From Tissierellia bacterium (GTDB lineage Bacteria; Bacillota; Clostridia; Tissierellales; Peptoniphilaceae): a DNA stretch of 37,107 nucleotides. The stretch's first letter is position 1; each line of letters begins with the position of its first letter. The notes beneath the pieces were generated by a model that searched no databases, was not told where the DNA came from, and was given only the letters and a program-made list of their open reading frames with translations. Positions 27,891-32,154 of the stretch are shown one piece after another. The stretch spans positions 33,957-71,063 of the forward strand of contig JAUNVF010000004.1 of assembly GCA_030537815.1 (NCBI GenBank), written 5' to 3'. Both the position numbers and the translations under genes were made by a program.

Positions 27891-28805
27891 TTGGCAGGAT
27901 GGGATGGAGATGCATTGATTTTTGCCATGCAGGAAGCTTTCGAAAAGACCAAAGGCATTTCAAAATACGGGGAAGTGGCTTCATATATTCCCGTACTTGA
28001 AAAAGTCGATCCGGAGTATTTTTCTTTGAGTATATCATATCAAGATAAGATATACTCGATAGGAGATCGGGAAGTTAAATTTTCAATTCAATCTATATCT
28101 AAAGTCATAAGTCTAATAATGGCGATTGAGCTATTTGGCAAAGACAAAGTATTTGAATTTGTAGGAATGGAAAATTGCGATAAAGCCTTTAATGGTTTGG
28201 GATGTGTAAAAAAGATTCCGGTAAACCCGATGGTAAATGCCGGAGCCATAGTAATCATATCTATGCTATACGAGAAATACAGAGAAAAGACGATAGATAA
28301 ATTTATCGAATTTATCGTAAATTTTTCCGGCAGAGATGATATTTACCTAGATGAAGAAGTTTATTCTTCAGAGATCGCCACATGTGCTATGAATAGGTCT
28401 ATAGTGCATTATCTAAATCATCTGAATCTCATAAAAGATGATTGCGAAGAAATACTAGAGCAGTATATAAAATGCTGTTCTGTGAGCGCTAATACAGAGG
28501 CTATTGCTCTTATGGCAGAGAAAATAGCTATGGGAAATGGCGATAAGGTAAAAAGCAGCAGCTCATCGATCGCCTGTGCAATAATGGCGACGAGCGGAAT
28601 GTATGAAAATACGGGTGAGTATATGATGAGGGTGGGCATACCGTCAAAATCAGGAGTCAGTGGTATTATTCTCGGATCTTCACCCGGGAAATGCGGATTG
28701 GCAGTCTATTCTCCTAGGCTAAATCAATACGGAAATAGTTATAGGGGAGTAAAAGTAATGGAGATTTTATCAGAGAGTTTAAATTTAAATATTTATAAGG
28801 GGTGA
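27891..28805 (+). CDS. glsA: Glutaminase
   Basis: Glutaminase hydrolyses glutamine to glutamate and ammonia. The 304-residue protein is of the serine beta-lactamase-like glutaminase family. SIQSISK holds the catalytic Ser68 and Lys71, and NPMVNAGAIV, YSSEIATCAMNRS and SGMYENTGEYM are typical. KSGVSGIILGSSPGKCGLAVYSPRL is the C-terminal signature. The best start is a TTG at 27891, four bases after GGAGGTGA; the first in-frame ATG is at codon 13 and lacks a ribosome site. It is followed four bases later by an AGCS symporter, the same pairing as Bacillus glsA-glnT. Confidence 0.94.
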   Translation: MAGWDGDALIFAMQEAFEKTKGISKYGEVASYIPVLEKVDPEYFSLSISYQDKIYSIGDREVKFSIQSISKVISLIMAIELFGKDKVFEFVGMENCDKAFNGLGCVKKIPVNPMVNAGAIVIISMLYEKYREKTIDKFIEFIVNFSGRDDIYLDEEVYSSEIATCAMNRSIVHYLNHLNLIKDDCEEILEQYIKCCSVSANTEAIALMAEKIAMGNGDKVKSSSSSIACAIMATSGMYENTGEYMMRVGIPSKSGVSGIILGSSPGKCGLAVYSPRLNQYGNSYRGVKVMEILSESLNLNIYKG

Positions 28806-28809
28806 GATA

Positions 28810-30216
28810 ATGGAAGCATTTGCAAATTTTACATCAGTGGCAAATGATATATTATATACTTATATTTTAATTGGACTATTATCTATTGTAGGCATTTATT
28901 TTACTATTAAAATTAAATTTGGACAGGTGAGAATGCTAGGACATATGGTCGGACTTCTCAAAGAAGTCAATCTTAGACCGGACGGTTCGAAAGGAATATC
29001 ATCATTTCAGGCATTCTGTATATCAGCAGCATCCAGAATCGGAACAGGAAATATAGCGGGAATCGCTGCAGCGATAGCTGCAGGAGGACCGGGAGCGATA
29101 TTTTGGATGTGGATCATAGCGATTGTCGGTGGAGCGACATCATTTGTAGAAAGTACTCTCGCACAGATTTACAAAGTCAAAGACGAGGACGGAACATTTA
29201 GAGGAGGTCCGGCTTATTATATCGAGCAGGTACTAGGAAAGAGATGGCTCGGAGTAGTATTTTCGATAATAATATCGATAACATTTGGATTTATGTTTAA
29301 TGCTATGCAGGCAAATACAATAGGTTCAGCTGTAAATAATTCAACTGGAATCAGTCATTGGATAATTGGAATCGTATTAGTAATATTGACTGGACTAGTA
29401 ATATTCGGTGGAGTCAAGAGGATAGCTGAAATATCTTCAAAGATAGTTCCGGTAATGGCCGTTATCTATATGTTGGTTGCGATATTCGTCGTCATCAAAA
29501 ATATAGCTTTTGTTCCCAAAATGTTCGGCTTGATATTCTCAAATGCATTTGGAATCAGACCTGTAGTTGGGGGCGGAATCGGAGCAGCGATATTAAATGG
29601 AGTCAGGAGAGGATTATTCTCAAATGAAGCAGGTATGGGTTCAGTACCAAATGCAGCTGCAACTGCCGACACATCGCATCCGGCAAAACAAGGATTCGTT
29701 CAGAGTTTAGGAGTTTATCTCGACACGATTCTAGTATGTTCTGCGACTGCATTTATAGTTCTTCTTGCAGGCGAGCAAGTCTATACCAATCCCGATCTTG
29801 AGGGAATAATGATAACGCAAGCTGCGCTATCGGCACATGTCGGAGCTTGGGCGACAGGATTCCTGGCGATTTGCATACTTCTATTCTCATATAGTTCCAT
29901 TATCGGAAATTATTATTATGGAGAATCTAATATCGAATTCATGGGCGGAGGAAAGACAATGCTCAATGGATATCGAATACTAGTATTGATTATGGTTTAC
30001 CTAGGATGTATCGGAGATTTCAGTATAGTTTGGAATACAGGAGATATATTTATGGGAATCATGGCCATTATAAATCTGGTCGTCATAATCCTAATAGGAA
30101 GAGTTGCGATAGAGACATTCTACGATTACAAAAAGCAAATGAGCGAAGGAAAGAATCCCGTATTCAATCCTAAAAATATAAAGAGCATAAATACAGAGCT
30201 CGACTACTGGAAATAA
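28810..30216 (+). CDS. glnT: Sodium:amino-acid symporter, AGCS family (GlnT-like)
   Basis: A 468-residue membrane protein with about ten to eleven helices. Family motifs are GHMVGLLKE, ISSFQAFCISAASRIGTGNIAGIAAAI, FRGGPAYYIEQ and GVRRGLFSNEAGMGSVPNAAA. These are the alanine/glycine:cation symporter signatures; the family also includes glutamine carriers. Its place directly after glutaminase, in one transcript, favours glutamine as substrate (inference). Together they would supply glutamate and ammonia from external glutamine. A strong terminator follows. Confidence 0.92.
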   Translation: MEAFANFTSVANDILYTYILIGLLSIVGIYFTIKIKFGQVRMLGHMVGLLKEVNLRPDGSKGISSFQAFCISAASRIGTGNIAGIAAAIAAGGPGAIFWMWIIAIVGGATSFVESTLAQIYKVKDEDGTFRGGPAYYIEQVLGKRWLGVVFSIIISITFGFMFNAMQANTIGSAVNNSTGISHWIIGIVLVILTGLVIFGGVKRIAEISSKIVPVMAVIYMLVAIFVVIKNIAFVPKMFGLIFSNAFGIRPVVGGGIGAAILNGVRRGLFSNEAGMGSVPNAAATADTSHPAKQGFVQSLGVYLDTILVCSATAFIVLLAGEQVYTNPDLEGIMITQAALSAHVGAWATGFLAICILLFSYSSIIGNYYYGESNIEFMGGGKTMLNGYRILVLIMVYLGCIGDFSIVWNTGDIFMGIMAIINLVVIILIGRVAIETFYDYKKQMSEGKNPVFNPKNIKSINTELDYWK

Positions 30217-30291: not shown

Positions 30292-30327
30292 TAAAAAAAT
30301 CTGATGCAAATTTTTTGCATCAGATTT
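30292..30327 (-). terminator. Rho-independent terminator after prxU
   Basis: On the minus strand ATCTGATGCAAA and TTTGCATCAGAT (plus 30314-30325 and 30299-30310) form a 12-base-pair stem followed by TTTTTTTAT. It lies just after the stop codon of the peroxiredoxin gene. Confidence 0.85.
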
Positions 30328-30335
30328 ATTATTTA

Positions 30336-30935
30336 TTAGTCACCAAGTTTCCATTGTTTCCAAACTTGACCTACTAAATCTTCACCTGGAGTTAATGTTT
30401 GTTTTCCTGGTTTCCAGCCTGTAGGTGCTACTTCAGCGCCTTTTTTATCATAAACTAATTTTTGAGCTTCTAATTGTCTTAGAATTTCATCAACGCTTCT
30501 TCCAACCGGTGGAGTTAAGATTTCGTATCCAACAACGATTCCTTCTGGATTCATTGTGAAAGTACCTCTAACGTCTACGCACTCAACTTCGTCGTATACT
30601 CCGTACATTTCTCCAATTCTTCCTGCAGGGTCTTGAGCCATATAGAATGGTGCTCCGCCGTCGACCATTTCAGAAAGCTCTTGATCATTCCATACTTTAT
30701 GAACGAATGGGCTGTCTAATGAAATAACGATCACTTCAGCGCCTAGTTTTGTAAATTCTTCATATCTGGCAGCAACTGCTGCTATTTCAGTAACTCAGAC
30801 AAAAGTAAAGTCGCCTGGGTAGAAGAATAGAATAGTCCATTTTCCTTTAAAGTCTGCTAAGTTTACTTTTGTAATCTTGCCTTTGTAATATGCCGGAACT
30901 TCAAATTCCGGAGCTGGTTGTCCAATTTTTAACAT
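30336..30935 (-). CDS. prxU: Selenocysteine-containing peroxiredoxin PrxU
   Basis: The 199-residue protein is encoded from the ATG at 30935 (after CGGAGG) through one in-frame TGA at 30797-30795 to the TAA at 30336. Without TGA read-through only fragments are called. The translation MLKIGQPAPEFEVPAYYKG and WTILFFYPGDFTFV, then codon 47 = TGA, then VTEIAAVAARYEEF places the TGA exactly at the peroxidatic cysteine of AhpC/Prx1 peroxiredoxins (FTFVCPTE). Position 47 is also where I recall Sec in the Eubacterium acidaminophilum PrxU. Downstream, EVAPTGWKPG replaces the usual EVCPxGWKPG, so the resolving cysteine is missing; the only Cys is residue 119. The role is peroxide reduction, probably by a one-Sec mechanism. 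It is a single gene with its own promoter and terminator. Confidence 0.92.
30769..30797 (-). promoter_or_regulatory. Bacterial SECIS-like hairpin with the Sec UGA
   Basis: The UGA (30797-30795) is followed after 12 bases by GCAGC, loop AGUU, GCUGC (30782-30769). This five-base-pair GC-rich stem has a four-base loop with G at its second position followed by U. Known bacterial SECIS elements have a small apical loop with a G in its first two positions, roughly 16-37 bases after the UGA. Here the loop lies about 17-20 bases after it. This supports recoding to selenocysteine by SelB. Confidence 0.75.
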
Positions 30936-30985
30936 AATATTACCTCCGTTTAATTTCTTTAGTAGTTAATTATTCCTACTTTATT

Positions 30986-31015
30986 AGTATACCCTATATC
31001 ACGCATATTAATCAA
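30986..31015 (-). promoter_or_regulatory. prxU promoter
   Basis: On the minus strand, TTGATT (31015-31010), an 18-base spacer and TATACT (30991-30986), about 50 bases before the start codon. The remainder of the gap to 31186 shows nothing further. Confidence 0.5.
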
Positions 31016-31236: not shown

Positions 31237-32154
31237 ATGATGGGATTGAATAAAGCGACTAAAGGACTGCTCTTAACCGGATTTGCCGCAACTATATGGG
31301 GCATAGCCGGAACATTTGCGCAGTATCTATTTTCCAATAATTTGGTGGACCCGCTCTGGATTACGAATATCAGGATGTTTTTCTCAGGCTTGATACTCAT
31401 TTCATATTGTAGTTTTAAATACGGGTCCAAGGTTAAGGATATTTTATTTGACGGATATAGTGCGATTAAAATTGCACTTTTTGGACTGATCGGTCTGACT
31501 TCTTCTCAGCTCACTTATTATATGGCGATAAATTATTCTAATGCGGGAACGGCGACAGTGCTCCAATATCTCGGCCCGACTCTGATAGTATTCTATGTAT
31601 GCGTAACACAGAGGAGATTTCCCAAATACGCTGAATTGATAGCGATAGCGCTGGCCGTCTCTGGAACATTCATAGTTGCGACAAGAGGCAATTTAAATTC
31701 GCTAAGCATATCGAGAGAAGCTTTGACATGGGGTCTTTTGTCGGCACTTGCGATGATGACATATACTGTAATGCCTGGCAAACTTATAGAAAAATGGGGA
31801 TCGGCGATAGTCAATGCATATGCCATGCTATTTGCCGGAACGATATTATTATTTATAATAAGGCCTTGGACATATGATATAGTATTCAGCTTTAAAACTG
31901 TATTTTCTATAATAGTGATAGTATTTTTGGGAACGGCGATAGGATATACTCTCTATCTTCAGGGAGTAACTGATATCGGTCCGGTCGCCGCCAGTACGAT
32001 AGCTTGCATTGAGCCGATTTCAGCGACCATATGCTCCGGACTTTTTTTAAACACGATATTTTTGCCTATAGATATACTGGGATTTTCGCTTATAATGATT
32101 TCAGTAATAATAGTGGCGATATCAAAGTCGAGAATGGCCAAATCACAAATTTAA
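31237..32154 (+). CDS. EamA/DMT-family metabolite transporter
   Basis: A 305-residue membrane protein with ten predicted helices in two EamA repeats. The first repeat opens with GFAATIWGIAGTFAQYLF and contains NYSNAGTATVLQYLGPTLIVFY; the second contains GVTDIGPVAASTIACIEPISA, the family's repeat-end signature. Members export amino acids or other small metabolites or drugs; the substrate cannot be told. The start is uncertain by a few codons: ATG at 31237, ATG at 31240 or TTG at 31246 all lie near AAAGG, and the TTG has the best spacing. queH follows 18 bases later, possibly in the same transcript. Confidence 0.86.
   Translation: MMGLNKATKGLLLTGFAATIWGIAGTFAQYLFSNNLVDPLWITNIRMFFSGLILISYCSFKYGSKVKDILFDGYSAIKIALFGLIGLTSSQLTYYMAINYSNAGTATVLQYLGPTLIVFYVCVTQRRFPKYAELIAIALAVSGTFIVATRGNLNSLSISREALTWGLLSALAMMTYTVMPGKLIEKWGSAIVNAYAMLFAGTILLFIIRPWTYDIVFSFKTVFSIIVIVFLGTAIGYTLYLQGVTDIGPVAASTIACIEPISATICSGLFLNTIFLPIDILGFSLIMISVIIVAISKSRMAKSQI

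Follow-up and report, generated by a model that had tools for sequence, protein, structure and literature searches.

A single in-frame TGA interrupts a peroxiredoxin-like frame on the minus strand of the window (the whole stretch of 37,107 nucleotides analysed here, from a Tissierellia bacterium), raising the question of whether this codon ends the gene or specifies selenocysteine (Sec). The frame runs from an ATG at 30935 to a TAA ending at 30336, and its sole in-frame TGA is codon 47 (bases 30797-30795). The initial annotation had described a 200-codon frame broken only at this codon; the single interruption stands, whereas the length is 199 residues, the 200th codon being the TAA. The strong ribosome site that it had placed ahead of the ATG is found as GGAGGT at 30947-30942. 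The features of the frame are as follows.

30336..30935, minus strand: prxU, 199-residue AhpC/Prx-type frame with predicted Sec at TGA codon 47 (from the frame, PF00578 and NF040737)
30795..30797, minus strand: UGA codon 47, predicted peroxidatic Sec, in the column of the AhpC/Prx1 peroxidatic cysteine
30942..30947, minus strand: ribosome binding site GGAGGT, 6 nt 5' of the prxU ATG, read directly

Translation table 11 yields only a 132-residue piece with a GTG start (30336-30734), as had been foreseen for an ordinary gene caller. Usual gene calling thus reduces prxU to a fragment without the active site, and the annotation ought therefore to show Sec at codon 47.

Translated through the TGA, the protein scores 307.4 bits against NF040737 (NCBIfam), the NCBI curated equivalog model for PrxU (cut-off 270, E 6.7e-92, residues 1-197 of 199). 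PrxU is also the name of the Eubacterium acidaminophilum enzyme. PF00578 (AhpC-TSA) is matched with E 2.6e-34, and the AhpC model TIGR03137 is not passed (168.6 bits, cut-off 272). The best PDB match is a typical 2-Cys peroxiredoxin, Peroxiredoxin-2 (7kj1), which aligns over residues 3-186 with E 2.2e-42. The genome itself contains a single match to this peroxiredoxin at E up to 0.001. In 42 aligned sequences, the TGA falls in the invariant column following PGDFTFV (PGDFTFV-U/C), which we take from the Prx1 family to be the peroxidatic residue; Arg123, likewise invariant in these sequences, is presumably the catalytic arginine. T44-F-V-U47 forms a TxxU motif. The curated cut-off and the column match bear out the original proposals of a PrxU-type selenoprotein and of a TGA placed on the peroxidatic cysteine of AhpC/Prx1 enzymes. 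Accordingly, 30336-30935 is almost certainly prxU, encoding an AhpC/Prx1-class peroxiredoxin with a predicted Sec as its peroxidatic residue.

The codon was compared across 110 fetched loci, comprising 30 among the matches listed and the best 80 of 203. Of these loci, 64 have TGA at codon 47, 24 have TGC and 22 have TGT (46 Cys forms), a 64:46 ratio that is no census of the family; some organisms occur in both parts of the set, as identical tree rows. The match to the PrxU model, together with TGA or TGC/TGT at the same codon throughout this set, places the in-frame TGA beyond chance. A single base change would be enough to turn an ordinary Cys peroxiredoxin into a pseudogene with a TGA at this position, but apart from this codon the frame is unbroken, with conserved sequence before and after it, the TGA recurs in the 64 loci across several phyla (judged by record titles), the genome holds a complete sel set and a hairpin is kept behind the TGA. 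The chance that the gene is disabled is therefore negligible. An error of sequencing or assembly is just as hard to credit. The window does come from a fragmented assembly (1.9 Mb, 68 contigs, 84.64% complete), but a genome of the same genus assembled in one contig carries TGA at the equivalent codon in a protein of 71% identity, and the hairpin is present. As separate genomes also have TGA, the check proposed initially, a resequenced TGT or TGC at 30797-30795, does not apply.

The TGA form co-occurs with selA. Among 61 genomes (the window's own and 60 relatives), a TGA form scoring above 200 bits occurs in 13, every one of which also has selA above the cut-off, compared with 41 of the 61 overall; the hypergeometric figure of 0.0027 for this co-occurrence is uncorrected for kinship. 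One further genome combines a weaker TGA form (134 bits) with selA over the cut-off. Among the matches listed, the 13 weaker peroxiredoxin rows with a TGA inside all come from genomes with selA, and no TGA-containing row occurs in the 20 genomes without selA over the cut-off.

A quick tree of 108 rows was built, from which two partial loci (L029 and L119) were excluded and in which the window protein replaced its own locus (L016); 24 of its 101 inner branches are starred, and long-branch warnings apply to L043 and L102. In this tree, L017 and L046 are the partners of the window protein (SH-aLRT 98), and all three belong to a larger set (67 rows, support 81, unstarred) that includes six Cys forms; the Sec form L043, on its long branch, lies outside this set. 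As a separate observation, locus L028 (G047:C16:30678-31256) has TGT at codon 47, Cys37 and no resolving cysteine, and its genome has selA. In the tree it sits on a long branch beside L027, a Sec form, and possibly represents a Sec-to-Cys change.

In bacteria that insert Sec, SelD makes selenophosphate, SelA makes selenocysteyl-tRNA and SelB delivers tRNA-Sec. The requirement that the organism carry selA, selB, selC and selD, stated at the outset, is answered by contig C46 of the same genome, where the four genes cluster within 5.3 kb (G000:C46:10793-16012), each over its curated cut-off: selA with 630.4 bits (cut-off 267.9), selB with 371.4 (242.25), selD with 393.9 (125) and tRNA-Sec (selC) with 70.7 (47). 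ARAGORN also reports a tRNA-SeC with anticodon tca in this genome. The selD gene (L015:1396-2445, minus strand; match G000:C46:15092-16012) has an in-frame TGA of its own, within a TSGU motif close to the N-terminus, and probably encodes a selenoprotein as well. An in-frame TGA is also present in two genes of GrdB type in this genome.

G000:C28:15332-16372: GrdB-type gene (L126), in-frame TGA in TSTUGTCTRCG
G000:C20:45395-46423: GrdB-type gene (L127), in-frame TGA in TSTUGTCTRCG

In both genes the TGA comes shortly after the Pfam domain finishes, and standard gene calling would therefore truncate them at that point. Together with prxU and selD, they bring the number of likely selenoprotein genes in the genome to at least four. 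Some bacteria reassign TGA, and the codon could in principle be read as another amino acid, through a reassigned code or near-cognate suppression. Such a reading has next to no probability here, given the full sel set with a tRNA-Sec of anticodon tca, and given that the TGAs of prxU, selD and the two GrdB-type genes all stand at known Sec places.

Insertion of Sec at codon 47 would depend on a signal in the mRNA, and the following element lies shortly downstream.

30769..30782, minus strand: SECIS-type hairpin (putative function), stem GCAGC/GCUGC, loop AGUU

The stem occupies positions +13 to +17 and +22 to +26 after the UGA, and an A-U pair is possible around the central GU. The stem has five pairs, with 17 nt between the UGA and the loop, a G at loop position 2 and a free energy of -8.2 kcal/mol over 42 nt. 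The bacterial SECIS model published in PMC13188914 requires a G among the first two loop positions, with N1 and N2 usually paired around G[G/U]; its spacing is 16-37 nt, and its minimum free energy is at most -7.5 kcal/mol. The window hairpin (A-GU-U, 17 nt, -8.2 kcal/mol) falls within these limits, which concern structure only.

The conservation of this hairpin was assessed in 60 distinct segments derived from the 64 TGA loci (L119 was dropped for its Ns and three repeats were merged). Between 97 and 100% of them form pairs 14-25, 15-24, 16-23 and 17-22, and 65% form pair 13-26, compared with 17 to 67% for the same five pairs in 42 distinct Cys segments (46 with four repeats merged). These Cys segments are a weak control, since the protein sequence there also differs. 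For a stronger control, each protein was kept and its synonymous codons were redrawn in 1000 randomisations. The inner five pairs are formed in 91.3% of cells, as opposed to 71.1% with per-gene codon use and 70.5% with pooled codon use, and none of the 1000 randomisations reached the observed value in either case.

Covariation was then measured over eight pairs (11-18 with 21-28) against 500 shuffles, none of which was as high in paired cells (88.8% vs 76.8%), cells changed on both sides (78 vs 26.9) or covariation score (0.361 vs 0.151), three measures that can all be raised by kinship. Neither the number of pairs with two-sided change (4 vs 3.6; 301/500 shuffles as high) nor the number of further pair types (13 vs 11.7; 108/500) is in excess. 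Shifted versions of the hairpin have covariation scores of at most 0.157, with a shift of -3 still pairing 74.5% of cells. At positions 18 and 21, the wobble positions of codons 53 and 54 (window 30774-30777), the 60 segments have A-U in 30, G-C in 28, G-U in one and another combination in one; flanking the central GU, these combinations are compatible with a single covarying pair that closes the loop. For pair 15-24, 41 segments show A-U, 12 G-C, four U-A and one G-U. RNAalifold alone recovers four pairs (14-17/22-25). Folded singly, the window stretch is no more stable than many of its shuffles (z -1.10, 26/200), and pair 12-27 is absent from its own hairpin. Rfam SECIS_1 has no match in the genome, but 14 control genomes are equally devoid of matches, which makes this result uninformative. 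These findings indicate that the hairpin 13 nt past the UGA pairs beyond coding demand, partly via paired changes. The locus set thereby supplies the Prx selenoprotein family with a hairpin that exceeds coding constraint. In 18 of the segments listed (e.g. L048 and L052; counted by eye), the sequence on its own folds best into a competing seven-pair stem that starts immediately behind the UGA, in place of the SECIS-type hairpin.

With the genes in place, SelD would make selenophosphate and SelA selenocysteyl-tRNA, and SelB would bring tRNA-Sec to UGA codon 47 by recognising the downstream hairpin. By analogy with the family, the Sec47 selenolate, held in the PGDFTFVU pocket with Arg123, may then attack peroxide to give a selenenic acid. 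How this acid would be reduced is a further question, as the window protein differs from typical 2-Cys peroxiredoxins in having a predicted Sec for the peroxidatic Cys and Ala170 for the resolving Cys. The C-terminal resolving motif VCPxxW is replaced by VAPTGW, which closes the usual 2-Cys route. Of the 63 listed TGA loci that cover the site, 42 have no cysteine at position 170 or close to it, compared with one of the 46 Cys loci (the raw 43/64 was reduced by L119, which ends before this position). The fewest changes on the tree are three for Sec/Cys and seven for the resolving cysteine, with two independent pairs on starred branches and three on all branches. With only two to three independent contrasts, kinship may explain the link between Sec and the missing cysteine, which is accordingly a pattern and not a test.

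Among the options for the reduction step, direct reduction of the selenenic acid by an outside thiol or by a partner of thioredoxin type, in a 1-Cys-type cycle, is the most likely and would be our reasonably confident choice. The same protein might instead use Cys119 as its resolving residue. Cys119 is the only cysteine of the window protein besides position 47, it is shared with the nearest relatives L017 and L046, the two that group with the window protein, and it lies four residues before Arg123. This role is nonetheless unlikely, as a Cys at 119 or 121 occurs in just six of the 64 listed TGA loci, the window's own included, and another six show no further cysteine within the part that matched (L029 and L119 among them are partial). 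Cys37 is found in 39 of the 64. Beyond the preferred reduction by an outside thiol, one may speculate, with considerable doubt, that Sec forms have been freed from the 2-Cys cycle, the selenium being resolved by Cys119 in the window lineage, by Cys37 in other PrxU branches or by an outside thiol in all of them.

The prxU described here is one more member of an already known enzyme family, and introduces no new kind of system. That PrxU-type enzymes with Sec are established in some anaerobic Gram-positives, as stated at the start, agrees with the Sec-containing peroxiredoxin of Eubacterium acidaminophilum, published in 2001 (Sohling et al., PMID 11501765; cited in PMC8533274 and PMC9312934). 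According to the title of that paper, it is likewise a Sec peroxiredoxin of a strict anaerobe, though of a different organism. Clostridium sticklandii is, according to PMC3091704, an amino-acid-degrading anaerobe with a seleno-peroxiredoxin and a Sec-containing GrdB. Its seleno-peroxiredoxin, CLOST_2406, is listed there at 240 residues with Sec84, as against 199 residues and Sec47 in the window protein, so approximately 37 N-terminal residues are absent from the latter or annotated differently. In surveys, 43 Sec peroxiredoxins were reported from Sargasso Sea data (PMC1088965), and a 2026 review lists the Prx selenoprotein family, with TxxU, above its heading for merely predicted families (PMC13188914). 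The window protein shares this TxxU motif, and nothing notable differs from the family as it appears in the excerpts of these surveys (PMC13188914, PMC9312934, PMC1088965).

Among the ten window frames scanned, prxU stands alone between an agcS-type carrier gene and a TIGR00950-like transporter gene, with the following elements around it.

28810-30216, plus strand: agcS-type amino acid carrier (TIGR00835, 494.8 bits, cut-off 272.65)
30297..30327, minus strand: intrinsic-terminator-like hairpin, 14 pairs followed by a T run, directly 3' of prxU, listed on both strands
30986..31015, minus strand: promoter-like TTGATT-18-TATACT upstream of prxU, 9/12 matches, a consensus match only
31237-32154, plus strand: transporter distantly like TIGR00950 (117 bits, short of its cut-off, 230.2)

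The promoter-like site is weak, since the region holds eight such sites where shuffles average 4.7. Terminator-like sites number four, where shuffles average 0.7. Separately, a glutaminase A gene (TIGR03814, over its cut-off) precedes the agcS-type carrier gene (TIGR00835) at window positions 27891-30216 on the plus strand, and the two perhaps form a glutamine-use pair.
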